A DNA stretch of 50,225 nt from Actinomyces ruminis (GTDB lineage: Bacteria > Actinomycetota > Actinomycetes > Actinomycetales > Actinomycetaceae). The stretch is taken from assembly GCF_002154335.2 (NCBI RefSeq), contig NZ_MTPX02000007.1, positions 1-50,225 on the forward strand, written 5' to 3'. Below, piece after piece: positions 7,527-48,757 of the stretch (position 1 is its first letter; the number at the start of each line of letters is the position of its first letter). The translations under genes and the position numbers were made by a program. The notes below the pieces were generated by a model. The model saw only the letters and a program-made list of their open reading frames with translations. It was not told the origin of the DNA and made no database searches.

Positions 7527-7544
7527 CATGTGAGGAGGCCGACC

Positions 7545-18896: not shown

Positions 18897-18992
18897 GTTT
18901 GGACCGCTTACGTCGGTTCGGACCGCCCACGCGGCACACAACGGCGGTCCAAACGGACTTACGCGGCCCAAACAGGGGATGGCGGTCCAAAC
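18897..18992. repeat. Symmetric GTTTGGACC/GGTCCAAAC array (copy 2)
   Basis: A shorter relative of the array at 9448-9603. Left units are GTTTGGACC and the variant GTTCGGACC, followed by the shared core GCACACAACGGC. Three right units follow (GGTCCAAAC, GGCCCAAAC, GGTCCAAAC). A further GGACCGCCCACG echo lies at about 18864. It fills most of the 327-bp gap between the DoxX gene and icd; nothing else is visible there apart from the icd ribosome-binding site. Confidence 0.85.
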
Positions 18993-19162
18993 GTGCGCGA
19001 TCGGGGCCAGCCGGCCCGCGAAACCGCCCAGCACCCGGCTGCGACACAAATCGCGGCGGCGCCGCGCTACCCTCAAGGTCGGGAGCCCCACCCGGCCGCT
19101 GCCGGAGACACGGGCCAAAACCCAGCCGACCTTACCTTGAAGAACACGAAGGAACACGACCG

Positions 19163-21408: not shown

Positions 21409-22930
21409 GCATGGGCACCGCGTCGGCCTGGCCCGCACCGGCCGCCACCGGCCCGCTGGACACCGTCGTGGACCTGCCGGGGTCGAAGTCGCTGACTGCC
21501 CGGGCCCTGGTCGCGGCGGCAGTGGCGGAGGGCCCGACGACGCTGCGCGGGGCCCTGCGCTCGCACGACACCGCGCTCATGCGCGCCGCCCTGACGACGC
21601 TCGGGGCGCGCTTCGAGGAGCTTCCCGACGAGTCCGGCAGCTGCGCCGACGCCGCGCTGCGGGTCACGCCCGCGCCGCGCCCGTTCCCGACCCGCGCCGA
21701 CGGCAACGCCGTGGCCCGGATCGACTGCGGCCTGGCCGGCACGGTCATGCGCTTCATCCCGCCGCTGGCCGCGCTGGCCGATGCGCCGGTTCTCTTCGAC
21801 GGCGACGCCGCCGCCCGCCGTCGCCCGCTGGCCCCACTCCTGGAGGCGCTGGCCGCCCTCGGCGCGAGGTTAAGTACCTGGGTGAGCCCGGCTTCCTGCC
21901 GGTGCGGGTCGGTCCCGGCGACGGCGCCCTGCTGCGTCCGGCCGACCCGGCCCGCCCCGAGGCTCCGCACCAAGTGGCCGTTGACGCCTCCGGTTCCTCC
22001 CAGTTCCTGTCCGCGCTGCTGCTGGCCGGGTGCCTGCTTCCGGGCGGCCTGGCCATCACTCCCACCGGGCCGGTGCCGTCCCTGCCGCATGTGGCGATGA
22101 CCGTGGAGTTCCTGCGCGGGCGCGGCGTCACCGTGGACGAGCCGGACGCGGACACCCCGGTGGGCGCGCGCACCTGGACGGTCCACCCGGGCGCTCCGCA
22201 GGGCGGCACGCTGGTCATCGAGCCGGACCTGTCCAACGCCGGCCCCTTCCTCGCGGCGGCACTGGTGGCGGGCGGGCGCATCGGGGTGCGCCACTGGCCG
22301 GCGCACACCACCCAGGCCGGGGACGCCTGGCGGTGGCTGCTGCCGTGCCTGGGCGGCGCCGTCGAGGAGACTCGTGAGGCGGACGGCTCGCTGACGCTCA
22401 CCGCCGTCGGCACCGGTAAGCTGCACGGGATCGACGCGGACCTGTCCGCCGTCGGGGAGCTGACCCCCACGGTGGCGGCGCTGGCCGCCCTGGCCTCGGC
22501 GCAGGGCCACGCCTCGCGCCTGCGCGGCATCGGCCACCTGCGCGGACACGAGACCGACCGCCTGGCCGCGCTGGAGGCCGAGATCAACCGGGTCGGTGGG
22601 AGGGCCCACCAGACCGATGACGGTTTGGAGATCGCCGCCCTGCCCGCCGGGGCGCGTCTGCGCCCGGCCCGGCTGCGCGCCTACGCCGATCACCGGATGG
22701 CGACCTTCGCCGCCGTCGTCGGCCTGGGCGTGAAGGGCGTCGAGGTGGATGACATCGCCTGCACCACCAAGACGCTCCCCGACTTCCCCGCCCTGTGGGC
22801 CCGCATGCTGGGCCTGCCCTCCTCCGCCTCCCCCACTTCCGGAGACCGGCACTTGTCGCCCACCGAGACCGGCACGAGTGACATACCTAAACCGGTAGCC
22901 ATGCCGGACGCTGCCGAGGAGGCACGCTGA
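21405..22930 (+). CDS. aroA: 3-phosphoshikimate 1-carboxyvinyltransferase (EPSP synthase; frameshifted)
   Basis: Shikimate-pathway enzyme. Family motifs are [17 protein letters not shown] near the N-terminus, [31 protein letters not shown], and [15 protein letters not shown] with the C-terminal [18 protein letters not shown]. One missing base at about 21869 (GCGAGGTTAAG for GCGAGGGTTAAG) splits it; repaired length is about 508 residues. The start is GTG at 21405 or ATG at 21411, both overlapping or abutting the icd stop. The last 35 or so residues after [10 protein letters not shown] are outside the family's normal end and are encoded partly by an intergenic-type repeat (22841-22881). Confidence 0.92.
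22841..22881 (+). repeat. 23-nt-period motif, copy C, inside the aroA 3' end
   Basis: GAGACCGGCAC occurs twice exactly 23 nt apart (22842 and 22865), with related flanks. The layout resembles copies A and B (CGGCAC within a 23-nt direct repeat). It is translated as the extra C-terminal tail of AroA. Confidence 0.45.
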
Positions 22931-33362: not shown

Positions 33363-34600
33363 CTATTTTGAAACCTGCTGCGCGGTGTGCAGAGGTACTG
33401 TGAAGACCACTGTCCAGCGCCCCCCACCCCGGTTCGTAATAAACTCACCACCAAGGGCCTCCACTCGGAGGCGCGCCCCTTCTAAACCGACCCCAGACGA
33501 AAGCGCCTTGTCCTTCGAGCGGTTTGCATCAACAGAATTCGTCACCATACACTCGAGCACATCGCCATTAACCTCGGCCACTACCCGCGCGCAACCATTG
33601 ACAGAAGTGTATTTCGCCGCATTGCTTACAAGCTCTCCAATCACGCGAACCACCTGCTGTCGCGTACCCGGAGTGAAGACTCCATCCTCGTCAAACAGAT
33701 CGACTCCCTCCGCCTCCAAGGAAGCTTGGCGCCCCGCCAATACACGTCTAGTATCGTCGAGCACTTGGATGACGGGACGCGGCGGCACAACAGACAAGAG
33801 CGCCAAAGCAGCATCATTATCAGTCGCATTCATGCTCCGCAGACTGCGCCGCAACTGGGCCGCGGCTGTACGCACAGGTTCGATCACTCCGTTCAACTCA
33901 CGAGCCAGATCACTATCGTCCGGACGAGCGATTTTCAAACGCTCTGCAGCCATCACCGCATACGCTAGATCATTAGCAACCGTGTCGTGAAGCTCAGACA
34001 TAAGAAGCGTCGTTGTCGCGCGAGCAGTTTACGCCGCTGCCGCGACACATCAATGGCTCGTTTGCGCTGATGACGCAACAACTCTCCAAATATGACACAC
34101 GGAACACCGATTATCGCTATCCAGACTAAAGATGCACCGAATACTTCCTGCCTGGTGTCATAGTAGACAATAACCGCTACAGCAGCAGCTATATAGCCAT
34201 ACACCAATTGCCGCGACAACCCGCGCGCAAGAAGCATAGCCGCAGCACCCCAGACAGCCATCGATGGGATTACCCCGGTAGTTTGCGGAACCGCCGAAGC
34301 GACCCACATCACTACAAAACTCGCCCCGGCGCCCAGACCAAATATGACCGAAGTGAGAGGCAATGCCAATAACGCTACAACCGTCAATACAATAGCCGTT
34401 GTCTCGAGAGGCGTACCTAGATAAGGCGATAGAACTATCAGAAACACGGCCACACCGAGGTGCAGCAGGTGCGTTCGGGCCGTTGGACGCCACAGATCCG
34501 GGTCATCTTGATCAGGAAGCGGAGATGAGCGCGACAGCAATGAGAGGGACGAACGTAGCGAAGAGAACAGGGACGAACGTAGCGAAGAGAACACAGACAC
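33363..34600 (-). CDS. Membrane sensor histidine kinase of the bacteriocin region (frameshifted)
   Basis: NarL/HisKA_3-type kinase of about 412 residues when one base is added near 34010. The first frame has a Ser/Arg-rich start, then five or six helices (HLGVAVFLIVLSPYLGTPLE, TTAIVLTVVALLALPLTSVI, and more), ending in KRAIDVSRQRRKLLARQR. The second frame begins MSELHDTVANDLAYAVMAAE, with the phospho-acceptor His in ELHDTVAND. It continues into a HATPase domain (VIGELVSNAAKYTS, GVGLEGARLRVEALGGEF). The GTG at 34600 follows GGGAG at 8 nt. It is divergent from its response regulator. G+C is lower than the window mean, suggesting acquisition. Confidence 0.85.
34545..34592. repeat. 24-bp tandem duplication in the kinase N-terminus
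   Basis: AGGGACGAACGTAGCGAAGA plus GAAC occurs twice back to back (34545-34568 and 34569-34592). It is in frame and encodes a doubled FSSLRSSL block near the kinase N-terminus. Confidence 0.9.
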
Positions 34601-34645
34601 GGCAACAGCTCCCGACGGGAACGGGTTCGGGCTTAAGCTTAGGGC

Positions 34646-35320
34646 ATGCCTAGCCCTGATGCACTTCCGACGGAGGGAGCCGGCGACGCCCCCATCCGGG
34701 TGGTCGTGGTGGACAACGACGTGTACGTCCTGCACGCACTACGCAACTACCTGGAGAGCGCGCCCCAGATCGAGTTGCTGCACGTCTTCGAGTCCGCCAC
34801 GGATGCGCTTCGGTTCCTGCGCGGCAGGCGCGTAGACGTTGTGCTCACCGATGTACGGATGCCCGGCATGGACGGCCTCGAGCTGCTGTCGCGCATCAAG
34901 CAGGAGTCTCCAGAGATAGCCGTGGTGGTCCTAACCGGCTTCGACGATGACACTGCCATGTTGACTGCACTTACGCAGCACGCCAACGGCTTCCTGTACA
35001 AGACCGCGGAGCCGGACGACGTCGTCCGCGCCATCGTCGCCGCGCACCAGGGCGGCACCGCCATCTCCCCGGACGCTGCCTCCAGACTGGTCGCCGAGCA
35101 TCTGCGCCCGGTGCGGCAAGGGCATGCTCCCGACGGCGTTACTCCTGCTGAGCAGAACGTCTTGGACCTACTGTGCGAGGGCATGTCCAACGCAGAGATC
35201 GCGGAGAAGCTGTTCATCGCCGAGAGCACCGTCAAACGCCACGTGTCAAGTCTGATGCACAAGTACGGCGTGGACTCACGCCTCAGGCTCGTAATCGAAG
35301 CCACCAAGGCTCAACAGTAG
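34646..35320 (+). CDS. NarL/LuxR-family response regulator
   Basis: A 224-residue regulator. The receiver domain has acidic residues in VVVDNDVY, the phospho-acceptor Asp69 in LTDVRMPG and the conserved Lys in FLYKTAEP. The C-terminal LuxR helix-turn-helix reads LLCEGMSNAEIAEKLFIAES and TVKRHVSSLMHKY. It is divergent from its kinase (45 bp apart) and convergent with the subtilisin gene (12 bp gap). Likely target: the bacteriocin promoter region, where a CTTCCCC/GGGGAAG palindrome lies. Confidence 0.93.
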   Translation: MPSPDALPTEGAGDAPIRVVVVDNDVYVLHALRNYLESAPQIELLHVFESATDALRFLRGRRVDVVLTDVRMPGMDGLELLSRIKQESPEIAVVVLTGFDDDTAMLTALTQHANGFLYKTAEPDDVVRAIVAAHQGGTAISPDAASRLVAEHLRPVRQGHAPDGVTPAEQNVLDLLCEGMSNAEIAEKLFIAESTVKRHVSSLMHKYGVDSRLRLVIEATKAQQ

Positions 35321-35332
35321 CCTGGAGCTCGG

Positions 35333-36648
35333 TCACCACCTCGCGAATCTGCCCAGTCGAAGGGTCCCGGAGCCGTACCAGGTGTTGCCTCCGGCTGCCC
35401 GGTCCTGGCACAGCAGTTCGCTGTCCTGCGCGGGACAGCCGATCGGTGAGGCCAGGGCCAGCAGCTTGTTTCCCGCTCGGGAGGCGGGCGTACCGCGTGC
35501 GATCAGTATGGCCGCGGCCGCAGCCACTTGTGGAGCGGCATATGAGGTGCCGCACACGTACCAGTAATAGCGGCACGTGTCGGTGCGCTGGTCGCATTCG
35601 GCGATGACCTCCGGGGACGTGGAACTGCCGTCTTCGGCGAGAACGCCGGCATCGCGGAGCAGCCCCTGGGGAACAGTGGTCAGGATGGCCGTATCCTGCC
35701 CATGCGGCACCCCGTCTTCGTCGTACCAGAGCGGCTCGCCGCCGGGAGCGACGATATCCACGGCCTGGCCGATGTTGGCGTAGCTGGCACGCTCGCCCGT
35801 AGCGTTGGCCGCGCCCACAGTAATGACGGCATCGGACTGGGCAGGCATGGTGACGCAGCTGTCGTTGACCTCGCGTGGTCCCTGCCCGGAATAGCCGGAA
35901 CTGAACCAGTCAGCGGTGCCGTGGTCCAGATCGAAGCCCTCGTTGCCGGCTGCCGCGATGAGGATGGTCCCGTGAGCCGCCGCATAGTCGAGCGCGGACT
36001 CGATCTCCTCCAGATCGGCGGCCTGTTGGGCGCGTTCCTCGGCGGTGTCGCCCGGGGCGTCTGTGCAGTATCGGAACCACGGGTCGGTGGTGAAGGCCAT
36101 GACCAGTATGTCCAGTTCGGTGTCAGCCCCGTAGCGGATCGCTTGGGATACGGCCTCGGTGGAGAAACTGCCGGTGGCGTCGCCCGCCTTCAGACTGACC
36201 AGGTCAACTCCGGGTGCTGCCCCACCGATGCCGCGGCCGTCCCGTGCCGCCGCGATGATGCCGGCGACGCCGGTACCGTGCCCGAGCGGATCCACTCCGG
36301 GATCGGCACAGTCGGGGTCCATGCTGCAAGCCTGGTCCGGCAGGAAGGAGCGGCTGTCCTCGGTGTTGTAGGCGGCGGCCAGTTCCGGGTGGGTGGCGTC
36401 GACGCCTGTGTCAATGATCCCCACCGATACTCCGGCGCGTCCCAGGGCCGGGTGCCGCGTTCGTTCCAGTTCAGGTACCACTGCTGGGATGCCAGCGGCT
36501 CCGCACGCCGGTATTCGGTCCGCGGCGTGGCCGAGGCGAGCGGCATAATTTCCAGCGCCAACACGAGCGAGATCACGGCGGACATGAGGCTGCCGCCCGA
36601 CCGGCGCCTCGGGAGCGACAGCGGCAGCGGTGAATTGGCCGTCACCAT
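35333..36648 (-). CDS. Secreted S8 (subtilisin-like) serine peptidase (frameshifted)
   Basis: The catalytic triad is visible: Asp in GIIDTGVD, His in GHGTGVAG and Ser in GTSYAAP, with the oxyanion Asn in IAAAGNEG. The natural N-terminus lies in the neighbouring frame from the ATG at 36648. It is a signal peptide (PRRRSGGSLMSAVISLVLAL, then EIMPLASA) followed by QQWYLNWNERGTR, the N-terminal strand of mature subtilases. One added base between 36440 and 36460 joins the parts to about 438 residues. The start overlaps the end of the 126-residue gene, so it is in the operon. It is a candidate leader protease or processing enzyme for the exported bacteriocin. Confidence 0.88.
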
Positions 36649-37022
36649 CGGGCGACCTTTTCATACAGCTGTCGCACGGGCGCGGTGGTCAGTGCGACCT
36701 CGCCATTGTGCTCGATCCACGACAGGAATCCGGCCTCGCCACTGTAGGGTGCACGTTCCCTACCGATCACCAGGTCAATGATGTGGCCCTGGCGTCTGGC
36801 GGCGAGGACGACGGCGGCGTCGCGTTCCACGTCCCCGACGAGTTCGCGTCCTTCCTTCTGCAGCAGATCGCGTAGGCGCAGCAGTGTCGCTTCAACCTGT
36901 TCCAGGGATTCATGGGAGGACTCACCGGTGCGGGGTATCCAGTCCTGCATGCCTGCTTCCTCCCGGGAGGAGCGGACGGTGCGGACGGCGGCCTTGAGCT
37001 CGGATCGCATGCTGCGGTTCAT
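36642..37022 (-). CDS. Hypothetical protein of the bacteriocin operon (126 residues)
   Basis: A soluble, charged protein, MNRSMRSELKAAVRTVRSSR onward, with a likely helical middle (SLEQVEATLLRLRDLLQKEG) and a C-terminal half predicted as alpha/beta (VGDVERDAAVVLAARRQGHI). I recognise no family. GAAGGA lies about 11 nt before the ATG. It starts 5 bp after the S9 peptidase stop and overlaps the S8 peptidase start by 7 bp, so it is firmly embedded in the operon. Possible roles include immunity or a peptidase partner; this is a guess. Confidence 0.7.
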   Translation of the reverse strand: MNRSMRSELKAAVRTVRSSREEAGMQDWIPRTGESSHESLEQVEATLLRLRDLLQKEGRELVGDVERDAAVVLAARRQGHIIDLVIGRERAPYSGEAGFLSWIEHNGEVALTTAPVRQLYEKVARW

Positions 37023-37027
37023 AATGT

Positions 37028-39126
37028 TTACTGTCCTTCAGAGTCAGAGGTTGTTCGGTGTTGTAGGTACGCGGTTTGGCTGAAGCTCTGGGAGCTGACG
37101 CCTGACTCACCAGCCCGTTCGGACATCCATTCGGCTTCGAGCCTGCACTGCTCCAGGATCGACTGCCTGGCAGCGAAGACGTGCCCCTCTCCGCCGAAGA
37201 CGGCGAGGGTGGCGTCGGCGCCATACAGCGTCAGGTTCTCGTAAAGGATCTGGGACTGGCGGGGGGTGGTAGCGGAGTTCTCATCGTCGCCGCCGCAGGT
37301 GATCAGGAACGGTATGCCCCGGTGTGCGTGCGCTCGTGAGACCACGCTCATCAGGCGGTACAGATCGGGGGCGGAGGCGACGGTGCGCCGGTCGTGCTCG
37401 AATCCGCCGGGAGTGGCGTAGCGGTCGTAGGCACCACTGCGCAGGATCGCTCCGGCAGGAGACACCAGGTCACGGAGCACGGCCACGGCGGCCAGCGCAG
37501 CCCCGAAGCTATGGCCTCCGAGGAACGGTGTGCCGGTATTGCCGGGGAGCGTCTCGGCGATCACGTTCAGGGCCGCCTGCCAGGCCTGGTTAGCACATTC
37601 ACGATTCCGTCTGTGTCCGTGCGGGCCAGGGCCTCGTAGTCGATACCGATGCGGATCACCGGGCGCGAGCCGGCGTGGCACCACTGGGCGGAGCCGATCG
37701 GCAGCGAGCCGATGTCGATGCACGTGAGATGCGGGGCCAGTCCGGGGACGGTCCAGGATGAGTCGAACCAGACCAACGGTGCGACGCCCTGCGCCGAATC
37801 ACTGGCAATCGCCTCAACCTCATGTCCCAGCGTGCTGCGAGTAACGACCGATGCGGAAGTGCCTGCCACAGGGTCGTCAACGGGAGGCACCCATAGCGCC
37901 CGGCCAGGCCGGGATATGGATTCGCGCCTTCCGTATGCCGTTGGCGCTTCGTCGGCAGGAACAGGTGGTATGTCGTAGTGGTCGGCAAGGCCTCCGGCTT
38001 GGTCGGATGTGATCGCAATCTGCCGGTAGCCGCGAGTACGTCCGGTCATCACCCGCACCCGGCCGCGGTCGTCACCCGGGAGGAGTCGTTCCACTTCGGT
38101 TCCGTCACTCCACCAGCCTCCGGGCCAGCGCACGGTGTCCGGCCTCCGACGCTCGACCCAGGCGCCGTTGAGACCGGGCACGCCGGTGTAGTGATCCACC
38201 GCCTCCCCCAGCGTGGCGACGACCGCGCCGTCCGCCACCATGTAGGAGGTGGTCCGGCCCGGCAGGCGCTCGGTGAAGACCACGGCCCTGCCGCCCCCGG
38301 TGTCACGGTGGGCCACCGAGCTGCGGGGTAGGTCTCCTATAGGCGAGGACTCGCAGATGTCTCCTTGCGAGGTCGCCGATACGACGTAGTGGTTGACGTG
38401 GTCTTCTCTCAGAAATGCCGCCAGCTCGGTCGCCGTGGCGGCGATACCGAGGATGAGCGAGTCCTCCGCCTCGAGCAGGACTGCTGCTCCGGCCGGCAGC
38501 CCGGTGAGTGGGACGTCATCCATCATGACGGTGCATGCCCCGGCGCAGAACAGCTCCTCAACGACCGCATCCGGCCACGCCCCCTCCCCCGTGCTGTGCC
38601 GGGGAATCGTCCGGCAAACCGGGTACTCCCGGCGGAGCCAGATCACGTGCTTGCCGAGCTGCCACAGGCGGGTCCGCCCGGCATTGTTCGGACGCAGGCC
38701 GAGCAGTGAGCGAGTGGAGAGGCCCCAGCCGACAGGATCCGCCTCCATATGCTCGCGCGCGCTGGCCTGTACTCGCCCGTCACCTTGACGGTGGCAGTAG
38801 ACCCAGCCGTGTTCGCCGTGCCGGCGGGGCAGGCCCTGCGCGGTGTCTGCGAGCAGTGTGCTCTTCCCGTCCGGTTCGACGACGCCCAGGTATCCCTCGG
38901 GCACGGGGGTGGGGATGAGATCGCCACTGATGAGGTCGTAGGCGATGCCCCGGTGGCGCAGCAGGTCCGTGCGCGGGCGCGCCACAGCCGGGTGCGTGGG
39001 CTGCTCCAGCCGGACCTGTGCACCCGTCCGGGCGTCGGTGAGCGTGTGGACCTCCACACGTCCCAGCCCCTTACCAATCGCTTCGGGATGCTCCCCCGGG
39101 CCATGCCCGGCCGCTTGCCCCGTCAT
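37028..39126 (-). CDS. Prolyl-oligopeptidase-like (S9) alpha/beta hydrolase (frameshifted)
   Basis: One protein of about 699 residues in two frames. The first 510 residues have a degenerate beta-propeller character (VWFDSSWTVPGLAPHLTCID near its end). The second frame supplies the hydrolase core: nucleophile Ser in GGHSFGAALA, an Asp-containing TCGGDDENSA and catalytic His in GGEGHVFAARQ. Adding one G near 37594 (AATGTGCTAAC to AATGTGGCTAAC) joins them. There is no signal peptide, so it is cytoplasmic. The ATG at 39126 overlaps the exporter stop (ATGA). It may trim the leader or act on immunity; its substrate is unknown. Confidence 0.75.
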
Positions 39127-40883
39127 GAGGGGACTCCGGCGCCCACTGCTCCCACTGTAGCGGTGGTCATCGGTGTGAGTCGGCCGGCTTCCATGCGGTA
39201 CCTGCGGTCGGTAACCGGTGTGAGGCGCGCATCGTGAGTGGTGACGACGATGCAGTGGTCCCGGCGCAGGTCGAGCAGGGTGACGATGAAGCGGTCAGTG
39301 GCCTCGTCGTCGAGCGCAGCCGTGGGCTCATCAAACAGCAGCACGTAGGGGTCCAGCGCAAGCATCCGGGCGATGGCCAGGCGCGCGCGCTCACCGCCAC
39401 TGATGCGCATGCCGTGCTCGCCGAGCATAGTGTCCATGCCCGAGCGGTCTCCCAGGCGGTCCAAGTCCAGGCCGACGCGTGCGCAGAGCTGCCGCACGTG
39501 CTCCTCGCTGATGTCAGGTCGCACCGCGCGGAAGTTCTCCAGCAGCGTCCCGCTGCGGAAGAAGGGCTCCTGCGGACACAGCTGCACCATGCCGTTCCAG
39601 GCCTCGGTCCCGGTTTCGGCCGGGGAGTAGCCGCCCACGGTGATGCTGCCGTGCGTGGGGCGGTTGGCTCCGGCAATAAGGGTCAACAGCGTGGTCTTGC
39701 CGCTGCCTGACGGTCCGACCACGGCGACGACCTCCCCGGGGCTGGCAGTCAGGTCGACGGCGTCGAGCAGCACGGTGCTGCCGGTGTCGGTCGGGACCGA
39801 GTAGTCGACCTCGCGGACAGCCAGACTCTCACTGCCGTGCGGCGTGATGGCGGTGTCTGCACTGGTCGGTTCGTACCAGTGCTCGTCCGCCTCCAGGAAC
39901 TCGTTCACGCGTGAAAGCGCCGCCCAGGAGGTGGCCAGACCGGTACGCATCCCCGAGGCACCCTGCAGCGGCGCGTACAGCTGGGGGACGAGGACGGAGA
40001 GCGCAGCGAGTTCACCAACGGTCATCTCACCACGAATGACCGAGCGACCCCCGATGACGAGCACCACCACGGTCCCCACCGTGCCGATCAAGTCCAGCGC
40101 CGTTGAGAAGAGACCATCGATCGTGATCATGCGCGTGTAAGAGGTGCGCACCCCCGCCGCTGTCTGCTCGGCACGACGGTGATCACCCCGGATACTGGCC
40201 GCGGTGCGGGCGAAGAGATGCCCGGATACTCCCATGCGGTCGGCGACGGTGTTGCTGAAGGCGGACATCGCCTCAAGCATGTGATCGGTCGCGGCACTCA
40301 GCGTGCGTGAGACCTTCTCGGTGGGCACCATGAGCACCAGCGCCAGCACCAGGACGGTCAAGGTGATGGTGTAGGAGCGCGACCACATTACCCCCAGCAG
40401 CACGCCCAACCGCGTCACCAGCCCGGTCAACTGCGGGAGAATGCCGGAGACGAATGACTGGGCCTGCGCGGTGTCATTGGTGATGCGCGAAAGCGCGTCT
40501 CCATTCGGCGCAGCCGCAACGGCCGAGGACGGCAGCCGGGTGAGCTTGTCCAGCATGAGCACCCGCAGGTGCTCCTGGAAGCGTTGCCCGGTGACGACGG
40601 TTATTCGTTGTGCGGCAAAGCCGACGACCGCGTTCGCCAGTGCGGCGGCCGCGGCGAGCAGCCCGGGGATGATGACCACCGTGACGGAGACGCCCGGGCC
40701 GGCGGCGTCAATGATGCGCTGCAACATGAGTGGCGAGACCACGGCCAGTCCGGCCTGGACGGCCAGCAGTAGGGAGATGCCGATGATGGCGGGCAGGATG
40801 GCCCGTGTGACCCTGCCGCAGGCGGAGGCCCAGAAGTGCCGCACGGAGCTCACGGCTGGGCGACGAGGTGACGTTCCCGCCAT
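39123..40883 (-). CDS. ABC exporter (permease fused to ATPase)
   Basis: A 586-residue half-transporter. Residues about 20-300 form the six-helix exporter domain (ILPAIIGISLLLAVQAGLAV, SRSYTITLTVLVLALVL, ALDLIGTVGTVVVLVIGG). The ATPase has Walker A VVGPSGSGKTT, signature RISGGERARLAIAR, Walker B YVLLFDEPTAALD and switch VVTTHD. The ATG at 40883 was chosen for the GGGAGGTG before it, and it overlaps the end of the upstream gene. No peptidase C39 domain is present, so leader removal must be done by another protein. Best candidate for exporting the defensin-like peptide. Confidence 0.92.
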   Translation of the reverse strand: MAGTSPRRPAVSSVRHFWASACGRVTRAILPAIIGISLLLAVQAGLAVVSPLMLQRIIDAAGPGVSVTVVIIPGLLAAAAALANAVVGFAAQRITVVTGQRFQEHLRVLMLDKLTRLPSSAVAAAPNGDALSRITNDTAQAQSFVSGILPQLTGLVTRLGVLLGVMWSRSYTITLTVLVLALVLMVPTEKVSRTLSAATDHMLEAMSAFSNTVADRMGVSGHLFARTAASIRGDHRRAEQTAAGVRTSYTRMITIDGLFSTALDLIGTVGTVVVLVIGGRSVIRGEMTVGELAALSVLVPQLYAPLQGASGMRTGLATSWAALSRVNEFLEADEHWYEPTSADTAITPHGSESLAVREVDYSVPTDTGSTVLLDAVDLTASPGEVVAVVGPSGSGKTTLLTLIAGANRPTHGSITVGGYSPAETGTEAWNGMVQLCPQEPFFRSGTLLENFRAVRPDISEEHVRQLCARVGLDLDRLGDRSGMDTMLGEHGMRISGGERARLAIARMLALDPYVLLFDEPTAALDDEATDRFIVTLLDLRRDHCIVVTTHDARLTPVTDRRYRMEAGRLTPMTTATVGAVGAGVPS

Positions 40884-41641
40884 GATTGCAGCACCTCCCG
40901 GCACTCCTGTAGTCCTGATTCCACGTGTGCGTCGCTTGGGTCCGCAGTGGACATGGAGACGACGGCCGGGAACGCGGATACGTCTACGCCGACCTCACGC
41001 AGGCGAGTGGCGGGTTCGGAGTCGCGATCGACCCAGCGGATCGTGCCGCCCGCCTCGATGTCATTGACCTCGTGCTTCTCCATGATCTTGAGCGCGGAGC
41101 AGGCGGTGCAGGTCGGGGAGAGCACCACTAGGAGGCGGTCGTGCTCCGCGCTGGGCACCTGTGCCTGCTTGCTGCGATTGTTCCACAGGGCGATAGCCAG
41201 CGTCATGACCAGTGCTGAGGCCGCCGCGACGGCCAGGCGCGCCAGCAGAGGTGAGGCGGCTCCGTCGCCGAGCACGGCGGCCGCGGTCAGCGCCACGGCA
41301 GCGAGCGCGCAGCCCCAGATATGCAGCCTGCCGACCTTCATTCCGGCCACGCCGAAGCAGCCGCATTCCTGCCCGCGCAGGGTGGTGGCGCCGATGACGA
41401 AGGCGGCGTACACGCCGGCGAGTATGAGGCAGGCCAGGCGCGCACTCGGTAGGGCGAGCGCGGCCGCCGCGGCCAGGATCTCCACGGCGATGACGAACCC
41501 GCTGGACAGGTGGAGGTTGAGGAAGTTGGCGCCTTCGGGCCAGGCCAGGCGCATGCGCGCAGTGGCCCAGAGCTTGGCGCCGGCGGTGCCGAGCAGGACC
41601 CCTGCCGCTCCCCCGATCAGGACGGTGATCAGTACATCCAT
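40850..41641 (-). CDS. MauE/DoxX-type membrane protein fused to a thioredoxin-like domain
   Basis: A 263-residue protein with a good ribosome-binding site (AAGGAG) before the ATG at 41641. Four helices (about 3-25, 50-66, 70-88, 105-125) carry the MauE hallmark CGCFG at 93-97. A further helix lies near 135-155. The C-terminal part is thioredoxin-like with CxxC at Cys178-Thr-Ala-Cys181 (LSPTCTACSALK). MauE proteins support disulfide formation in periplasmic partners. Because the neighbouring bacteriocin needs three disulfides, a role in oxidising it, or its export pathway, is a strong inference. Start and stop overlap neighbouring operon genes. Confidence 0.85.
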   Translation of the reverse strand: MDVLITVLIGGAAGVLLGTAGAKLWATARMRLAWPEGANFLNLHLSSGFVIAVEILAAAAALALPSARLACLILAGVYAAFVIGATTLRGQECGCFGVAGMKVGRLHIWGCALAAVALTAAAVLGDGAASPLLARLAVAAASALVMTLAIALWNNRSKQAQVPSAEHDRLLVVLSPTCTACSALKIMEKHEVNDIEAGGTIRWVDRDSEPATRLREVGVDVSAFPAVVSMSTADPSDAHVESGLQECREVLQSWRERHLVAQP

Positions 41642-41663: not shown

Positions 41664-41921
41664 TCATTGCTTCGAGTCGCTGGGCTCGGTTTCGGATGTC
41701 CGGTTGCTGTCCGTCTCAATCAGAACCCCGGAAGTGACCGCCTCCTGGAGAACCGGCGAGTCTATGGGCACGAGGTCTCCGAGCAGGGCCTGCTCGACCA
41801 GTTCGCCGGTGCCCTCATCGAGCTCATATACGGAAAGTCGGCGCAGGTCGGCAATGGCCCAGCCACCGTTCTCAAGGTGTGTGAGGCTCATTCCTTCAGC
41901 GAGCCGCCAGCGTCCAGCCAT
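41664..41921 (-). CDS. Small PqqD-like protein (possible peptide-recognition element)
   Basis: An 85-residue protein. After MAGRWRLAEGMSLTHLENGG it reads WAIADLRRLSVYELDEGTGE and LVEQALLGD, then SPVLQEAVTSGVLIET. The spacing of a Gly-rich turn, a tyrosine-x-leucine strand, a helix and a final LxxxGxL motif is like PqqD/RRE domains that bind leader peptides. ATG 41921 is preceded by GAGAGGTGG at 7 nt. It overlaps the 386-residue gene by 34 bp. The PqqD assignment is a pattern judgement and needs a profile search. Confidence 0.55.
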   Translation of the reverse strand: MAGRWRLAEGMSLTHLENGGWAIADLRRLSVYELDEGTGELVEQALLGDLVPIDSPVLQEAVTSGVLIETDSNRTSETEPSDSKQ

Positions 41922-43048
41922 GACGTCAACCACCTCTCTGTCTCTACGGTGTTCTTCACATCTGGGGCGTACTGCTGCCTGAGGAAGGGGTCCTGGCCGA
42001 TCTGCGCCAGCCCTTCGGTGTCGATGAGTCCGCGGGCGGCCAGGGCGCCGTCGGCGAGCTCCTCCTGCCAGGTACCCCAGGCGCTTGCCGCCTCGCGCAC
42101 CGCCTCAAGCCGCGCGGCCGCGCCGTCGTCGATCGGGTCTCTTCCGTAACGTCGGCAGATGACGGCGTCATGGGTGCGCACGCCGGGCCGTACGCTCGCC
42201 GAGCGCTCCTTGTAGGGAACAGCGGCGAAGGCGGCGATGACCCGCGGATCGTGGGCGGGGCGGTAGGTACTGGCCCCGGAGGTTGCAGGCTTGCCCGCCG
42301 CGGTCCACAGGAGTTGGCACACTCGCGGGGGCAGCCCTTTTATGGCCTCCTGCCAGGAGGCGAGCGACACGATGCGGGCCACATCGATCATGTTGATGGC
42401 GTCAACCGTGAGCCACTGCGGGGCGACCTCGATCTCCGAGACGACATCCTCAGACGTGGATTGGTGTTCCTCCTGATCGGGCTTCGAGTTCCGGCGACCG
42501 CTGCGCAGCAGCCGGTCGAGAAAACCGCCGCGTGACTGCTGCCGTTCTTGCTCGGCCTCCACGGCGCCAATGAGGTCACGTATACCACGCAGGTCGATGT
42601 CCTGTGCTTCCACTTGTACGGGAGGCTCGGATGAGGACGTGGCCGCGGAAGTGACCAGCTCGCTGACGTAGCGAGTTACGAGGTCATCGACTACGTGTGA
42701 TGACCGGATGTCCCCATTCACACCGTGCTGGTGCAGCGCCTTCGCTAGCACCCGCTCGGCCTCGCCGATAAAACGGGGCTCAAGGTCATACTGCGATTGC
42801 TCGTACGGAGTGATCGCGTCTCCTTCAAGGCGGGTTCCGGGGGTGCGGCGGAGCACCCCGGTGAAGAGTGACTGACCGAAGGACGGGCGCACGCCGGCGA
42901 TGCCGGCGATCACGAACATGAGGCTGGCGGAGGCGTGGTCTGCGGCCAACGCCTCCTCTGTCACGGAATCCCAGGAGCCGGCGTCGTTGCGCAGCAGTTC
43001 CGCAGCCTCTGCCCAGGGGGAGGCCGAAGATGTAAGGTTAGTGCTCAT
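41888..43048 (-). CDS. Unknown 386-residue protein directly after the bacteriocin gene
   Basis: Starts MSTNLTSSASPWAEAAELLR at 43048 after AAGG. It has no signal peptide or evident membrane helix. It seems to have two parts: an N-terminal half of helices (VIAGIAGVRPSFGQSLFTGV) and a C-terminal half (SWQEAIKGLPPRVCQLLWTA, DAVICRRYGRDPIDDGAAAR), separated by a basic then acidic linker around RSGRRNSKPDQEEHQ. I do not recognise it. As the first gene after the precursor, it could be a dedicated maturation, chaperone or immunity protein. Confidence 0.75.
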   Translation of the reverse strand: MSTNLTSSASPWAEAAELLRNDAGSWDSVTEEALAADHASASLMFVIAGIAGVRPSFGQSLFTGVLRRTPGTRLEGDAITPYEQSQYDLEPRFIGEAERVLAKALHQHGVNGDIRSSHVVDDLVTRYVSELVTSAATSSSEPPVQVEAQDIDLRGIRDLIGAVEAEQERQQSRGGFLDRLLRSGRRNSKPDQEEHQSTSEDVVSEIEVAPQWLTVDAINMIDVARIVSLASWQEAIKGLPPRVCQLLWTAAGKPATSGASTYRPAHDPRVIAAFAAVPYKERSASVRPGVRTHDAVICRRYGRDPIDDGAAARLEAVREAASAWGTWQEELADGALAARGLIDTEGLAQIGQDPFLRQQYAPDVKNTVETERWLTSWLDAGGSLKE

Positions 43049-43082: not shown

Positions 43083-43128
43083 CTCGGGCCCATTCCAAGC
43101 CGTGGCACCGGCATGGAATGGGCCCGAG
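43083..43128 (-). terminator. Strong hairpin directly after the bacteriocin gene (attenuator)
   Basis: CTCGGGCCCATTCCA pairs perfectly over 15 bp with TGGAATGGGCCCGAG, with a 16-nt loop that can itself pair (GCCG/CGGC). It begins 17 nt after the precursor stop and precedes the 386-residue gene. A partial terminator or processing site here would make precursor mRNA more abundant than the downstream mRNA. Confidence 0.8.
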
Positions 43129-43144
43129 CAACACTCGCTACCGA

Positions 43145-43351
43145 TCAGTAGCAGGTGCAGCGGAGTCGCGCCGTCCAGAAGTCGCAGTACCCGCCCCGGT
43201 AGTTGACACTCTTGCAGTGCCGGTTGCACTTGTACTCATTGGGACAGCCGAAACCCTCGGCTCCCTCAAGGGGCGCCTGGGTCTCGGACCGGAGCGCCTG
43301 CTCGAAGCTAGCGGCGGCGAGGCTGCTGCTGCGGCGAATGAACTTCCTCAT
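43145..43351 (-). CDS. Defensin-like (CS-alpha-beta) bacteriocin precursor, actifensin-type
   Basis: A 68-residue precursor. Residues 1-32 (MRKFIRRSSSLAAASFEQAL, then to PLEGAE) form a leader, basic then acidic. Residues 33-68 would be the mature peptide, starting GFGCPNEYKC and ending RLRCTCY. Its six cysteines at mature positions 4, 10, 14, 24, 33 and 35 give the CS-alpha-beta layout: C-x5-C-x3-C, then GYC (G-x-C), then C-x-C. The GFGC start, HCKSV and YRGGYC segments and final CTCY match actifensin of Actinomyces ruminicola and resemble fungal plectasin. GAGAGGA lies 8 nt before the ATG. Fungal and bacterial members bind lipid II; that target is inferred here. The inter-cysteine loops differ from actifensin. 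Confidence 0.95.
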   Translation of the reverse strand: MRKFIRRSSSLAAASFEQALRSETQAPLEGAEGFGCPNEYKCNRHCKSVNYRGGYCDFWTARLRCTCY

Positions 43352-43424: not shown

Positions 43425-43443
43425 CTTCCCCGATTTGGGGAAG
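43425..43443. promoter_or_regulatory. Palindrome upstream of the bacteriocin gene (operator candidate)
   Basis: CTTCCCC-GATTT-GGGGAAG is a perfect 7-bp inverted repeat with a 5-nt centre, 74 bp upstream of the precursor ATG. A -10-like TATAAA lies at 43496-43491 (minus strand). If that is the promoter, the palindrome is in the leader; otherwise it may be the activator site for the response regulator at 34646. Confidence 0.5.
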
Positions 43444-43502: not shown

Positions 43503-45992
43503 TCATTCCTGAGCAATCGCGGTCACGGGGACTATGGACGCGGCACGGCTGCTGGGGCGCAGGGCGGCGAGCACACCGACCACCGCCGCTGCGAGCAGGA
43601 TCGCCACCAGCCATAGCCAGGGCACCCGCAGTACGAGTTCCGAGCCGCTGTCGGCTCCCATTACTGCGGCTACACTGGCCAGCCCAAGGACCGCACCGAG
43701 AACGACTCCGATCACACCGCCCAGCAGCGAGGTCAGGACCGACTCGGTGATGAAGAGCCCTCCTACCTGACGCCGTTGTACGCCCATAGCACGCAGTACC
43801 CCGATCTCCCGGACTCGTTCCAGCACGCACACATCCGTGGTGTTGGCCATTCCGGAAAGAGCGATCAACAGTGTGAAGGCCAGTACTACGGAGATAACCG
43901 CCATAATCCAGTTGAGGTACTCCGTGAATGTGGTGCGGCCTGCTGCCGTGGTCGTAATGGAGTAACCCTCCCCTTGCAGGAGTTGACGCACCTCCGAACC
44001 TACCGCAGTGTCACTACCATCACCGATGACGCGCACCCACAGAGATGAACCCACGGGATTGTCTCTGACCAGATTCTTTGCGACCGCAGCCGTAATAACC
44101 GGCCCGAAGCCGCCTTCCTCCACGTGTACGGTCAGTTCGGCACTGCCCGCAGGTCCTGTGAGCGTCACAGGCGTTCCCTCGGGCAGGTCATAGATTTCTC
44201 CGACAATCAACGTATTGTCGTCAAGACCCTCCAGTCCGTTGTGGGAGCGTACGACCGGAGCGACCTCAGCCACATCCACTGCGGACACAGTGATCGTATT
44301 GTCCGCCGTCATATCCGAAGAAATACTCACATCGAACGTCGGCACCAGGACCGTCCGATCAACGTCGTCCACGTTCTCTACCCGGGCGGTCAGCGTGGAC
44401 GTATCAGCATCGGCGGGAATACCGCTGACCTGGATGTCTATGGGACTGCCGCTATTAATGTATCCATCCATTGAAGCGCGCGCACTGGTGATGCCGGTGA
44501 TCAGGGTGGAGGCGACGGCCACGGAAACCAGCAGTGAGGCGGTGGTTGCCGCCGCGCGCCCCGGATTGCGGGCCAGATTGCGGGTGGCGAGTTGCAACAC
44601 CGGCCGACGCGCACCGCCTGCGAGTCGCTCCGCGGCGCGGGAGGCACCGATAACTAGCAGCGGCAGTCCTACTAACACACCCAGTACCAGAAGCACTGCG
44701 CCAGCCGCCGTGTACTCGATAACTCGCGCCTGAATGCTCAATCCGGTTATAACCAAACCGATTACGACTACCACCAGCCCCATGATGGCGCTGATCACGC
44801 GCCGACGGCTTAGCGAGCGCTCATTGGCCACCTGCCCGGTCAGGGCCACCAGGGGCGAGACGCGGGTGGCGCGACGGGCCGGACGCAGCACCGCCACCAG
44901 TGTCACCGCGGTTCCGAGGAGTACACCCAATAGGAGTGAACGCCAGGACACCGTGAAATACTCCCGTTCCAGACCTTCGATCAGGCCTGCACGTGATACC
45001 AACGCTGCCAATCCCACGCCGAGTCCGGCGCCCAGAACCGAGCCCACCAACCCGGTGATAAGCCCGGTGCGCAGCACCGCTCCGAGCACCTGGCGGCGGG
45101 TCGCACCGATGCAGCGCAGCAGACCGGTCTGGCGCGCCTGCCGGGCCACCATCGTACTGAACGTCGTCGCGATCACGATTCCCGCAACCACGGCGCACAC
45201 CGGCCCCAGTAGCTGGAACAGTGTCATCGTCACCGAATTCACCGAACTTTGTCCGGAAGTCCGCATGACCACAATATCGGAGGCGTCGTAAACACCCGCA
45301 CCCGGTTGAGAGGCCTGCACAACCTGCTGGACCGAATTCATGAGCGTAGCGGTATTTGCACCCGCAGAGCCCGTCACATATAGAACAACAGGAGTCTCCG
45401 GAACACCGAGCACCGCACGTTCTTCCGCTGTCGCAAAGACATAAGCCGCGTCTGTCCCCTGCCGAGTGATCTCGGCACCAGGCTGGATTATGCCCACAAC
45501 CGTCGCAGTTGAACTCGCTTCGGCGTCAGAATCCGGTTGGAAGGAAACGGTGCTCCCAACTTCAAGATCCTGGGTCTGCGCAGCAGCCGGGGAGAGGGCT
45601 ACCTCTCCTTCCTTCTCCGGCAGGTGCCCCGCCGTCAAACGTGTGCCACCGCGTATCTCCGGCACCTCCAGCACGAACGAATGCGAGTCGTACGCAGAAC
45701 CGGCTGGATGCACAATCCACGTCGAGCCCTCGATATAGGGACGCACACTGGCCACGCCGTCGGCGGCAGCGACGTCCCGGACCGCCTGCTCGGGCAGGGT
45801 TCCGCCCGTGGCGTCATCGTGACTGTCGGCGATGACGACCACATCGGCGTCGCCGACCGAGGCGCGAGCTGCCGCCGTCATCTGCGCGGTCGAGGAATCG
45901 GAGATGATGAGGCTTACAACGATGAGCGCCGCGCTCATGGCGACCGCCACCAGGGCGGCCACGGTGCGGCGCAGGTCAAGCATGGCGGGCAT
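43503..45992 (-). CDS. MacB/FtsX-type ABC permease, probable bacteriocin immunity
   Basis: An 829-residue permease. An N-terminal helix (LVAVAMSAALIVVSLIISDS) leads to a large extracellular domain (about 30-260). Two FtsX domains follow (around LLRCIGATRRQVLGAVLRTG and VLERVREIGVLRAMGVQRRQ), each with three or four helices, and a second extracellular domain lies between them. The ATG at 45992 overlaps the ATPase stop (TGATG). It precedes the bacteriocin gene by 151 bp on the same strand. ATPase/FtsX pairs frequently protect producers from cell-wall-targeting peptides, so immunity is the best guess. It is strongly similar to the permease at 48848-50225. Confidence 0.88.
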   Translation of the reverse strand: MPAMLDLRRTVAALVAVAMSAALIVVSLIISDSSTAQMTAAARASVGDADVVVIADSHDDATGGTLPEQAVRDVAAADGVASVRPYIEGSTWIVHPAGSAYDSHSFVLEVPEIRGGTRLTAGHLPEKEGEVALSPAAAQTQDLEVGSTVSFQPDSDAEASSTATVVGIIQPGAEITRQGTDAAYVFATAEERAVLGVPETPVVLYVTGSAGANTATLMNSVQQVVQASQPGAGVYDASDIVVMRTSGQSSVNSVTMTLFQLLGPVCAVVAGIVIATTFSTMVARQARQTGLLRCIGATRRQVLGAVLRTGLITGLVGSVLGAGLGVGLAALVSRAGLIEGLEREYFTVSWRSLLLGVLLGTAVTLVAVLRPARRATRVSPLVALTGQVANERSLSRRRVISAIMGLVVVVIGLVITGLSIQARVIEYTAAGAVLLVLGVLVGLPLLVIGASRAAERLAGGARRPVLQLATRNLARNPGRAAATTASLLVSVAVASTLITGITSARASMDGYINSGSPIDIQVSGIPADADTSTLTARVENVDDVDRTVLVPTFDVSISSDMTADNTITVSAVDVAEVAPVVRSHNGLEGLDDNTLIVGEIYDLPEGTPVTLTGPAGSAELTVHVEEGGFGPVITAAVAKNLVRDNPVGSSLWVRVIGDGSDTAVGSEVRQLLQGEGYSITTTAAGRTTFTEYLNWIMAVISVVLAFTLLIALSGMANTTDVCVLERVREIGVLRAMGVQRRQVGGLFITESVLTSLLGGVIGVVLGAVLGLASVAAVMGADSGSELVLRVPWLWLVAILLAAAVVGVLAALRPSSRAASIVPVTAIAQE

Positions 45993-46779
45993 CAGCGCAC
46001 CCCCTGCACGGCGGCCGCCGGGGCGGCGTGCTGGCCGGTGGGCCGGGAGAGCACGTCGTCGCCGACGATCCGCCCGTCCCGCAGCCGAACGATCCGGTTG
46101 GTGGCCCCGGCCGCGTTCTGATCATGGGTGACCATGACCACCGTCTGCCCCAGGGCCTCGCACATGCGGGCCAGCGTCTCCAGCAGGGATGCGGCCGACG
46201 CGGTGTCCAGGGCCCCGGTGGGCTCGTCGGCGAAGATCACCTCCGGCCGTCCCACGAGGCGCGGGCCACCGCCACACGCTGCTGCTGGCCGCCGGACAGC
46301 TCGCTGGGCCGGTGCTCCAGCCGGTCCCCGATCCCCAGGGAGTCGATGACGGCGTCGTACCAGTCCCGCTCCGGCTTGCGGTGGGCCAGCCGCAGCGGCA
46401 GCAGGATGTTCTCCTCCGCGGTCAGCTGCGGCAGCAGGTTGAAGGCCTGGAAGACGAAGCCGAGCTGGTCGCGGCGCACCGCCGTCAGCTGGCGGTCATT
46501 CATCCGAGCCAGGTCCTTCCCGGCGATGAACACGCTGCCGGAGTTCGGGGTGTCCAATCCGGCCAGGCAGTGCAGCAGCGTGGACTTACCCGATCCGGAG
46601 GGCCCCATGACGGCCACGAACTGGCCGCGGCTGACGGCCAGGGAGACGTGGTCCAGGGCGGTGACCTGCGCGCCGCCGGTGCCGTAGATCTTGGTGAGCA
46701 TGCGGGCCTCGACCACTTTCGGGGCGGCGGGGTCGGCGCCGGACAGGCCCAGGTAGGTGGATTCGGTGGGGGCGGACAT
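45992..46779 (-). CDS. MacB-type ABC transporter ATP-binding protein (frameshifted)
   Basis: About 262 residues when repaired. From the ATG at 46779 (GGAGGAAC upstream) it reads Walker A VMGPSGSGKST, Q-loop FVFQAFNLLP and signature ELSGGQQQRVAVARA. The frame then breaks near 46258; the next frame starts GRPEVIFADEPTGALD (Walker B) and has VVMVTHD. Adding one C (GCGCCTCGTG to GCGCCCTCGTG) gives a continuous family sequence. It powers the FtsX permease encoded next. Confidence 0.9.
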
Positions 46780-47027
46780 CGGGGTTCCTCCGTAACGGCT
46801 TGCTTTGGCTGACGGGATCAACGCTAGAAGCCGGAGAATCCGTTGGAAATACGCTGAAAGTCGGAACTACCGGCCGGCCGCGGACAAAAGTCTCAGCGCC
46901 GTCTACTACCTTCGCACCACCCCGCCCTCAACCTCCAGGACGAGACCGCAGTCACACCGCTCGGGGTAGTCCCTGACGCTCCCGCTCCCCGTTCCGCCCG
47001 GTACGAGCCGCGGTCCACATCGGAACC
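46780..47027 (-). other. Gap between AbiEii gene and ATPase gene
   Basis: 248 bp with no convincing gene; frames here lack translation signals. It presumably holds the promoter for the ATPase/FtsX operon. Confidence 0.4.
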
Positions 47028-47954
47028 TCAGTCTCGCCATTGGGCGGAGGTATGGTCCCAGCGTCCCTGACGACGTGAACCGTTGAGGACCTCATCCAGA
47101 CACGCAGCGGCCACCTTGAGCGAGGCGTCGAGCGAATAAAGCGCTGCCGGAAACTCGGCGAACTCGCGCGCCTGAATGGAGTAGGCACGCTCCCACCCCG
47201 GGGAAGGCGAGACGAGCGCGGTTGGCCTCGGGATTCGCCGGCGACTGGACTCGTGATCCACCACTTCGCTCAGTCTCGCGGCGTCGAAGTCGAGGTTGAC
47301 AATGATGCGAACGATGTCTGCCAAATCGCGGTAGCGCGTGGAAGCCGTGCGTGTCTCTCCGTGCAGTTCGTATATCGCACAGATCTTGTCCGCAAGATGG
47401 TTCTCAACAGGCACTGTGGGCACAGGCGGTAGATCCGCGATCGTCTCATGCTGGATGATCGGTGCTGGGGTAAGCCGGTCAACAGGACCGTTGATGTGGC
47501 GCCGGGTGGTTATGTCTATGCTGAAACGGCTGAACTCGGAGGCCCCGAGCAGGACCCGGACGTCGGCCTTTGCCGTCAGAGCGCCGTAGTCGTAGGCGTC
47601 GGGCGCGCTGTGCGGCGACACGTTGAGGAGTTCAAAACGGAACGGATCAGAATCAATGGGGCGGCTCAGGGCCGACTTGAGTTCTTCTCTCAGCTCTTTT
47701 ACGTCAGTCCAGCCATGTGCGCGGGCAAGGTCGACGTCGCGGGTGAAGCGGCCACCCCGAGTGCGTATGAGCAGCGCGTTACCGCCCAAAAGCAGCCACG
47801 CATCCGTCTCATCGGCGAACAGGCGCTTAGTCAGCAGCGCGAAGACGTACTGCTGACGAATATCGTCGGCAGTGACTCCGCGGCGTCTGGCTTCAAGCCT
47901 GATGCGCGAGTTCAACGACTGCCGCAGACGCGAAGCGGCGAGCCGGTCAATCAT
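47028..47954 (-). CDS. abiEii: AbiEii-family toxin (nucleotidyltransferase)
   Basis: A 308-residue protein of the AbiEii/AbiGii family. The nucleotidyltransferase core is LLLGGNALLIRTRGGRFTRD followed by VDL (GG...R.T.DVDL). The later VENHLADKICAIYELHGETR with STRYRDLADIV is the conserved C-terminal Lys/Asp motif of the family. AbiEii toxins are NTP transferases that reversibly stop growth and can abort phage infection. The ATG at 47954 directly abuts the antitoxin stop (TAG|ATG). Function inferred from family and pairing. Confidence 0.92.
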   Translation of the reverse strand: MIDRLAASRLRQSLNSRIRLEARRRGVTADDIRQQYVFALLTKRLFADETDAWLLLGGNALLIRTRGGRFTRDVDLARAHGWTDVKELREELKSALSRPIDSDPFRFELLNVSPHSAPDAYDYGALTAKADVRVLLGASEFSRFSIDITTRRHINGPVDRLTPAPIIQHETIADLPPVPTVPVENHLADKICAIYELHGETRTASTRYRDLADIVRIIVNLDFDAARLSEVVDHESSRRRIPRPTALVSPSPGWERAYSIQAREFAEFPAALYSLDASLKVAAACLDEVLNGSRRQGRWDHTSAQWRD

Positions 47955-48707
47955 CTACGCCCCCATCCCGTGAACAGCCGCAGTCAGACGCCGAGTCGTT
48001 GCCTCATCCAGCCCCATCTGCGGGATCAGCGTTGCAGGCGCGTACCGGATAGTTTGGAGGGCTGCAGACGGCGGGCCGGCGATCGTCAGGAGTGCGGCGA
48101 CGAGATCGGCTCCGGTTTTGTGCCCGTACGCGGATGTGTAGGGCTCAAGCGCTACGGCGATCTCCTCGAGGTCGGCCTGCGAAGTGCCGGCAGCGTCTCT
48201 CACGGTTGCCGCAAGATGCTCCACGTCGGTGTGATCAGCGGCCAGGTCGGCAATGGTTCGCGGGACGGTGGTGACCGAAATGCCGTCGACGACGGTTACA
48301 TCGCTGTCAGTGAGTGGGGCCTGTCGGTAGCGGATATCAGGCTGGCGAGTCTGTTTCCTGGTTGGAGCCGTCAAGGAATGACGACTCGGAATAAGTTCGC
48401 CGATACCGTGCAGCGCCGCTGCGGACGTGTGAGAAACGGCGGGGCTGTCCGGGTCATCGACGCGCTCGTCTGCGAACCGCCCCGGGTCCGTACTTAGCCA
48501 TGCGCCGCGAACATCCTGGTGCAGATCACTTTCAGAGCCGGGCAGTGCGTACACGCCGTGGCGAATACGGACCAGCCCGTCGGAGGCAGTCAGGCGGGTG
48601 AGTGTGGTTCGGTCGATGCCGAGCCGTGAGGCCTGAGCCGTGGTGATCAGGCCTCGCTGCGAACCAGTGGCGGAAGATAACGTGCGGAGTGCGTCTGCGG
48701 TTCTCAT
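47955..48707 (-). CDS. abiEi: AbiEi-family antitoxin
   Basis: A 250-residue antitoxin. The N-terminal winged helix reads LITTAQASRLGIDRTTLTRL then GLVRIRHGVYALPG, followed by the AbiEi core (AVSHTSAAALHGIGELIPSR and ISVTTVPRTIADLAADH). The ATG at 48707 was chosen over 48737 because AAGAGG stands 5 nt before it and because the upstream ATG lies in the centre of a long palindrome. AbiEi neutralises AbiEii without direct contact (type IV) and represses its own promoter. Confidence 0.92.
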   Translation of the reverse strand: MRTADALRTLSSATGSQRGLITTAQASRLGIDRTTLTRLTASDGLVRIRHGVYALPGSESDLHQDVRGAWLSTDPGRFADERVDDPDSPAVSHTSAAALHGIGELIPSRHSLTAPTRKQTRQPDIRYRQAPLTDSDVTVVDGISVTTVPRTIADLAADHTDVEHLAATVRDAAGTSQADLEEIAVALEPYTSAYGHKTGADLVAALLTIAGPPSAALQTIRYAPATLIPQMGLDEATTRRLTAAVHGMGA

Positions 48708-48714
48708 ACGACCT

Positions 48715-48757
48715 CTTGCTGCATTTGCTACATCCATAATGTAGCAAACGCAGCAGG
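48715..48757. promoter_or_regulatory. AbiEi autoregulatory operator candidate
   Basis: Two 19-nt arms (48715-48733 and 48739-48757) are reverse complements at 17 of 19 positions around a 5-nt centre, with core TTTGCTACAT/ATGTAGCAAA. It lies 7 bp upstream of the chosen abiEi start. AbiEi proteins are known to bind inverted repeats at their own promoter. Confidence 0.75.

Follow-up and report, generated by a model that had tools for sequence, protein, structure and literature searches.

A closely related described system is that of actifensin, the defensin-like peptide of Actinomyces ruminicola. The accessible part of PMC6989792 mentions one homologue in a Corynebacterium and lists the genes afnG to afnI as unknown; in its text there is no mention of a hairpin, a stem–loop, an inverted repeat, an operator or any term beginning with palindrom-. 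Actifensin binds lipid I and lipid II and the fungal peptide plectasin has been reported to bind lipid II, nine plectasin residues being tied to this binding (PMC12284004, the latter in section 8, as far as the accessible part goes). Actinomycesin has been reported to inhibit cell-wall synthesis (PMC8819291, accessible part).

We analyzed a stretch of 50,225 nucleotides from Actinomyces ruminis (referred to as the window), for which the original prediction had proposed a six-cysteine precursor of 68 residues, composed of a 32-residue leader and a 36-residue core, at positions 43145 to 43351 without giving the strand. The gene is located on the minus strand. There an open reading frame of 68 codons starts with an ATG at 43351, the stop codon ends at 43145 and the purine-rich sequence GAGAGGAA is found immediately 5′ of the start codon; the translation of the plus strand of the same region is nonsense. 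The leader reads MRKFIRRSSSLAAASFEQALRSETQAPLEGAE (32 residues with GAE at 30–32) and the core reads GFGCPNEYKCNRHCKSVNYRGGYCDFWTARLRCTCY (36 residues, six cysteines). The start of the core with GFGC, its end with CTCY and the two loops PNEYK and DFWTARLR are present in the minus-strand translation just as predicted. With a spacing of C-x5-C-x3-C-x9-C-x8-C-x-C the core has the cysteine order of the CS-alpha-beta peptides including G-x-C and C-x-C. The actinodefensin model of NCBIfam, NF038042, matches the precursor with 114 bits (cut-off 65, E 3.3e-33) over the profile positions 1–69 of 69, and the Pfam family Defensin_2 (Arthropod defensin) matches with 31.7 bits (cut-off 20.4). Since both matches are above the cut-off the reading frame is not a chance one. 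The proposed actifensin-type identity is backed by the family model as well as by the gene neighbourhood, and judged by its sequence the gene adds a member to the already described family of actifensins (actinodefensins). The precursor is predicted to be cut between GAE and GFGC, and from the homology to solved defensins we predict a CS-alpha-beta fold for the core, which would be held by three disulfides; its calculated average mass is 4266.8 Da in the oxidised versus 4272.8 Da in the reduced form, the 6 Da corresponding to the three disulfides. The features of the locus are compiled in Table 1.

Table 1. Features of the actinodefensin locus, given as positions in the window.
Feature	Position	Strand	Evidence or remark
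afnA, actinodefensin precursor, 68 aa	43145..43351	-	NF038042 and Defensin_2 above cut-off
Hairpin, 15-bp perfect outer stem	43083..43128	-	begins 16 nt after precursor stop
Palindrome CTTCCCC-N5-GGGGAAG, candidate operator	43425..43443		starts 92 nt before precursor start codon
act_def_assoc_A (matched here to one of afnG-I)	41888..43048	-	NF038043 643 bits, cut-off 250
act_def_assoc_B, start 41933 or 41891	41664..41933	-	NF038044 72.9 bits, cut-off 45
MauE-like membrane protein with thioredoxin-like tail (CGCFG, CTAC)	40850..41641	-	MauE below Pfam cut-off
ABC exporter (afnF), membrane and ATPase domains, no C39 peptidase domain	39123..40904	-	Pfam
S9 alpha/beta hydrolase (afnE), two ORFs, 37567-39126 and 37028-37723	37028..39126	-	Peptidase_S9 in second ORF
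126-aa protein (afnD)	36642..37022	-	conserved in 9/9 relative loci; no Pfam match
S8 subtilase (afnC), N-terminal part in another frame	35333..36664	-	Peptidase_S8 140.8 bits
LuxR-type response regulator (afnB)	34646..35320	+	Response_reg and GerE
Histidine kinase, two ORFs, 33965-34735 and 33363-34001	33363..34735	-	HisKA_3, HATPase_c in second ORF
FtsX-type ABC permease (afnJ position), candidate self-protection	43503..45992	-	NCBIfam permease-family matches below cut-off
ABC ATPase (afnK position), frame change near 46255	45992..46821	-	ABC_tran in 46237-46821
Second FtsX-type permease, possibly afnL, runs off contig end	48868..50225	-	ORFs; FtsX

The gene order from protein A to the regulator is kept in all nine relative loci (L054–L062), in one of which (L062) the precursor is found on a different contig, and the first FtsX-type permease is 86% identical in L059. 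Of 213 genomes of the family, the same 10 give matches above the cut-off for the precursor, for protein A and for protein B. The precursor scores above the cut-off in 10 of 49 genomes of the genus and in one of 396 genomes in a sparse draw from the phylum, this one being the genome of the window itself. A scan of named genomes with protein A gave one locus, that of A. succiniciruminis AM4, and a search of plasmid records gave five weak matches with E values of 0.5 to 9. Upstream of the peptide gene, an AbiEi/AbiEii pair (47028–48737; PADLOC 282.7 and 282.3 bits) separates the second FtsX-type permease from the ABC ATPase. The idea that protein B could be a leader-binding domain of the PqqD type is unsupported, as neither a Pfam nor a PDB relative was found; its model is weak (mean pLDDT 60.9) and gave no fold match. 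For protein A a profile search returned no PDB relative, and the model is too weak for use (mean pLDDT 56.4).

The region just downstream of the peptide gene is able to form a hairpin with a folding energy of -49 kcal/mol (z -4.7), which is single-copy in its own genome, has no T-run behind it in the window and does not belong to any Rfam family at the gathering score. At the same position all nine loci, the window included, give z values of -3.6 to -6.7. In nine of the 10 loci the last precursor is followed by perfect arms of at least 9 bp, which occur in 56 of 1998 random 80-nt windows; this inverted-repeat count supersedes a stricter one requiring a stem contiguous to the loop, by which 5 of 10 loci had at least 9 bp. 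Such arms are also present after 8 of 12 non-last precursors, for which 110 nt were read, and therefore the hairpin is not a marker of the border to the machinery genes alone. Taking the window's own fold as the structure we aligned nine of the ten loci (L004 of genome G016, on a short contig, was omitted). In this alignment, the rows of which are related and the L054 and L055 hairpins nearly the same, 86.4% of the cells pair and 13 of the 19 pairs change on both sides. None of 500 shuffles reached the number of paired cells or of two-sided changes and three of 500 reached the number of pair types, while slid versions of the structure pair 31–49% of the cells. Such a hairpin could allow more of the peptide than of the machinery to be produced.

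On the other side of the gene lies the palindrome listed in Table 1. Searched with a spacer of four to six nucleotides it is present as a single copy in its own genome. Eight of the 10 producer genomes have it with its start 91–101 nt ahead of a precursor; it is absent in the producers G017 and G050. Counted by genes, the upstream stretches of 25 precursors were read and 10 of them contain it, the number 25 being reached after removing places seen in several loci and with masked-leader precursors left out. The exact palindrome occurs in 14 of 2000 random windows, true sites included. Across the 49 genomes of the genus a scan yielded 15 sites in 11 genomes versus six sites in five genomes for the pattern read backwards. 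Ten of these 15 sites lie before precursors and three elsewhere; the one in G022 has the same flank and is followed by a contig edge, and the one in G007, a genome with no intact precursor, precedes a relic whose leader runs into the apparent last residues of the exporter. Producers carry the palindrome in 8 of 10 cases as against 3 of 39 for the non-producers (Fisher P 1.4e-5, with relatedness ignored as in all the counts given here). LuxR-type regulators commonly bind inverted heptamers. The LuxR-type regulator of the cluster is the natural candidate to bind the palindrome, and the two-component system may switch the peptide on through it.

Alternatively the palindrome could be a terminator or a hairpin in the 5′ leader RNA instead of a protein-binding operator. 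Any palindrome could fold as RNA and this one scores terminator-like on the plus strand; however, one terminator-like site is near to what is expected by chance for the stretch (mean 0.4). The arms are moreover identical across all genomes carrying the palindrome, in contrast to the downstream hairpin, whose stem persists through paired changes. As the search demanded identical arms, independent evidence comes here only from the constant position and the count. On balance we consider an RNA element at this place rather unlikely and prefer the reading as an operator.

In the assembled sequence the S9 gene, the N-terminus of the S8 gene, the kinase gene and the ATPase gene change frame, and because of these four genes the locus in its assembled form does not qualify as intact. 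It could be a decaying copy from which the peptide is no longer made, the more so as the relative G007 retains just a precursor relic and part of the cluster. We regard this as improbable since the reading frames of the precursor, A, B, the MauE-like protein and the exporter are uninterrupted and since other genes of the window, housekeeping genes among them, are damaged as well, which points to assembly errors: mntH (7530–8941) and aroA (18899–21385) each change frame once and are thus broken in two, and icd (21405–22930) lacks the end of the profile. The frame changes are therefore probably errors of sequencing or assembly. The S9 gene and the kinase gene are each a single frame in the relative L059. 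In the relic locus of G007 (L071, 5082–7345) the palindrome and the start of the leader remain together with the S9, D and S8 genes; a search of the 10 kb did not find the core, A, B or the MauE-like gene.

Several proteins of the cluster are candidates for the maturation of the peptide. In all 10 loci the MauE-like protein carries the motif CGCFG in its membrane part and a C-x-x-C in its thioredoxin-like tail. For the tail there is a weak PDB match to thioredoxin reductase and the Pfam matches are weak, too, and for this reason we infer rather than assign its role: the protein is likely a disulfide enzyme and would form the disulfides of the core. The ABC exporter, in which a Pfam domain search detected no C39 peptidase, would carry the peptide out. 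Its leader would be taken off by the S8 and S9 proteases of the cluster, which appear to be the likeliest leader proteases. Of the fixed patterns searched in the S8 protein, GHGT and GTS[YF]A are kept in every one of the 10 loci and DTG[VI] in eight; for the S9 hydrolase all 10 loci have GHSFG, eight have GE[GN]H and two have GGDD. The pathway suggested for actifensin in the accessible part of PMC6989792, in which a C39 peptidase of the ABC transporter cuts the leader at GA and an exopeptidase then trims the product, agrees with the GA at positions -3/-2, shared with actifensin, but is highly improbable and unsupported for this locus because the cluster exporter is without a C39 domain and a whole-genome search found C39 in only 2 of 10 producers, the own genome (82.57% complete) being one of the eight with none. 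The FtsX-type transporter may protect the producer.

As for the target, eight of the nine plectasin residues implicated in the binding of lipid II could be mapped by hand on the cysteines, with K23 being unmapped; six of them are identical in the core described here and two are conservative exchanges. The peptide likely targets Gram-positive bacteria, which the folded form would kill by binding to lipid II. It would thus add another natural variant to the lipid II-targeting defensin family, with molluscan peptides as the closest solved relatives.

What is seen directly here is the sequence, its match to the family, and the operon with its conservation. We have high confidence in the explanation as a whole, namely a peptide of the actifensin family with the proposed maturation, target, protection and control. 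More tentative, although quite conceivable, is the generalization that actinodefensin loci bring along their own control and maturation, consisting of a palindromic operator about 95 nt upstream on which the two-component system of the cluster acts, a covarying hairpin that uncouples the output of the peptide from that of the machinery, a fused MauE–thioredoxin enzyme and S8/S9 proteases instead of C39. In our view the variant itself is of less use than the testable proposals on the induction, folding and cleavage of such peptides.

A homologue search in 5.8 billion proteins clustered at 90% returned 16 relatives. Two of them, P0005 and P0017, are without the full six-cysteine pattern and were excluded from the 37 distinct precursors that we compared, two rows of which run on from a relic further upstream into a precursor. 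The closest relative is an actinodefensin of Actinomyces timonensis (P0002), which is 90% identical over the precursor and has the same cysteine spacing, the same PNEYK loop and a core with 33 of 36 residues identical, that is with three substitutions. P0010, which holds the actifensin core, is 69% identical to the precursor and the two A. succiniciruminis precursors are 62–67% identical. The original prediction of a probably distinct peptide with distinct loops is consequently right with respect to actifensin itself (23 of 40 columns of the core alignment identical, 58%) but overstated in view of the A. timonensis core and its PNEYK loop. The last loop was likewise rejected as an unusual trait: its eight residues fall outside the 4–5 residues of the motif given in the accessible part of PMC6989792, but loops of eight are present in 10 of the 37 precursors, the others having seven (22 precursors), five (four) or six residues (one).

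For the proteins A and B the order of the relatives is a different one. Among named species those of A. succiniciruminis are the nearest (88% and 80% identity), followed by A. ruminicola (83% and 75%), whereas those of A. timonensis, the species with the nearest peptide, are farther away (77% and 67%). Because the precursor and the proteins A and B have different nearest species, the comparison suggests that the peptide gene is exchanged or turns over fast inside a steadier operon.

When the solved structures are ranked by sequence the oyster defensin 2b68 and the mussel defensin MGD-1 (1fjn) come first with 45.5 and 44.2 bits, actinomycesin is fourth (27.6 bits) and plectasin ranks below the two molluscan peptides. 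Within the aligned part, MGD-1 is identical in 26 of 37 core columns (70%) and the oyster defensin in 24 of 37 (65%), but both are animal peptides with extra cysteines in this part and have neither leader nor operon in common with the locus described here. As regards a transfer from animals, a core of 36 residues is too short for a tree. Actinomycesin (2ru0), with 20 of 37 core columns identical (54%), shares the CS-alpha-beta cysteine order, and so does plectasin (1zfu), whose first loop comprises 10 residues. With actifensin of A. ruminicola, as far as described in the accessible part of PMC6989792, the peptide shares the 32-residue leader ending in GAE, the GFGC start, the CTCY end, the six cysteines and the operon order, which matches the published one apart from the AbiE pair; the two peptides differ in their loops, the first having five residues here and nine in actifensin and the last eight here and five in actifensin.
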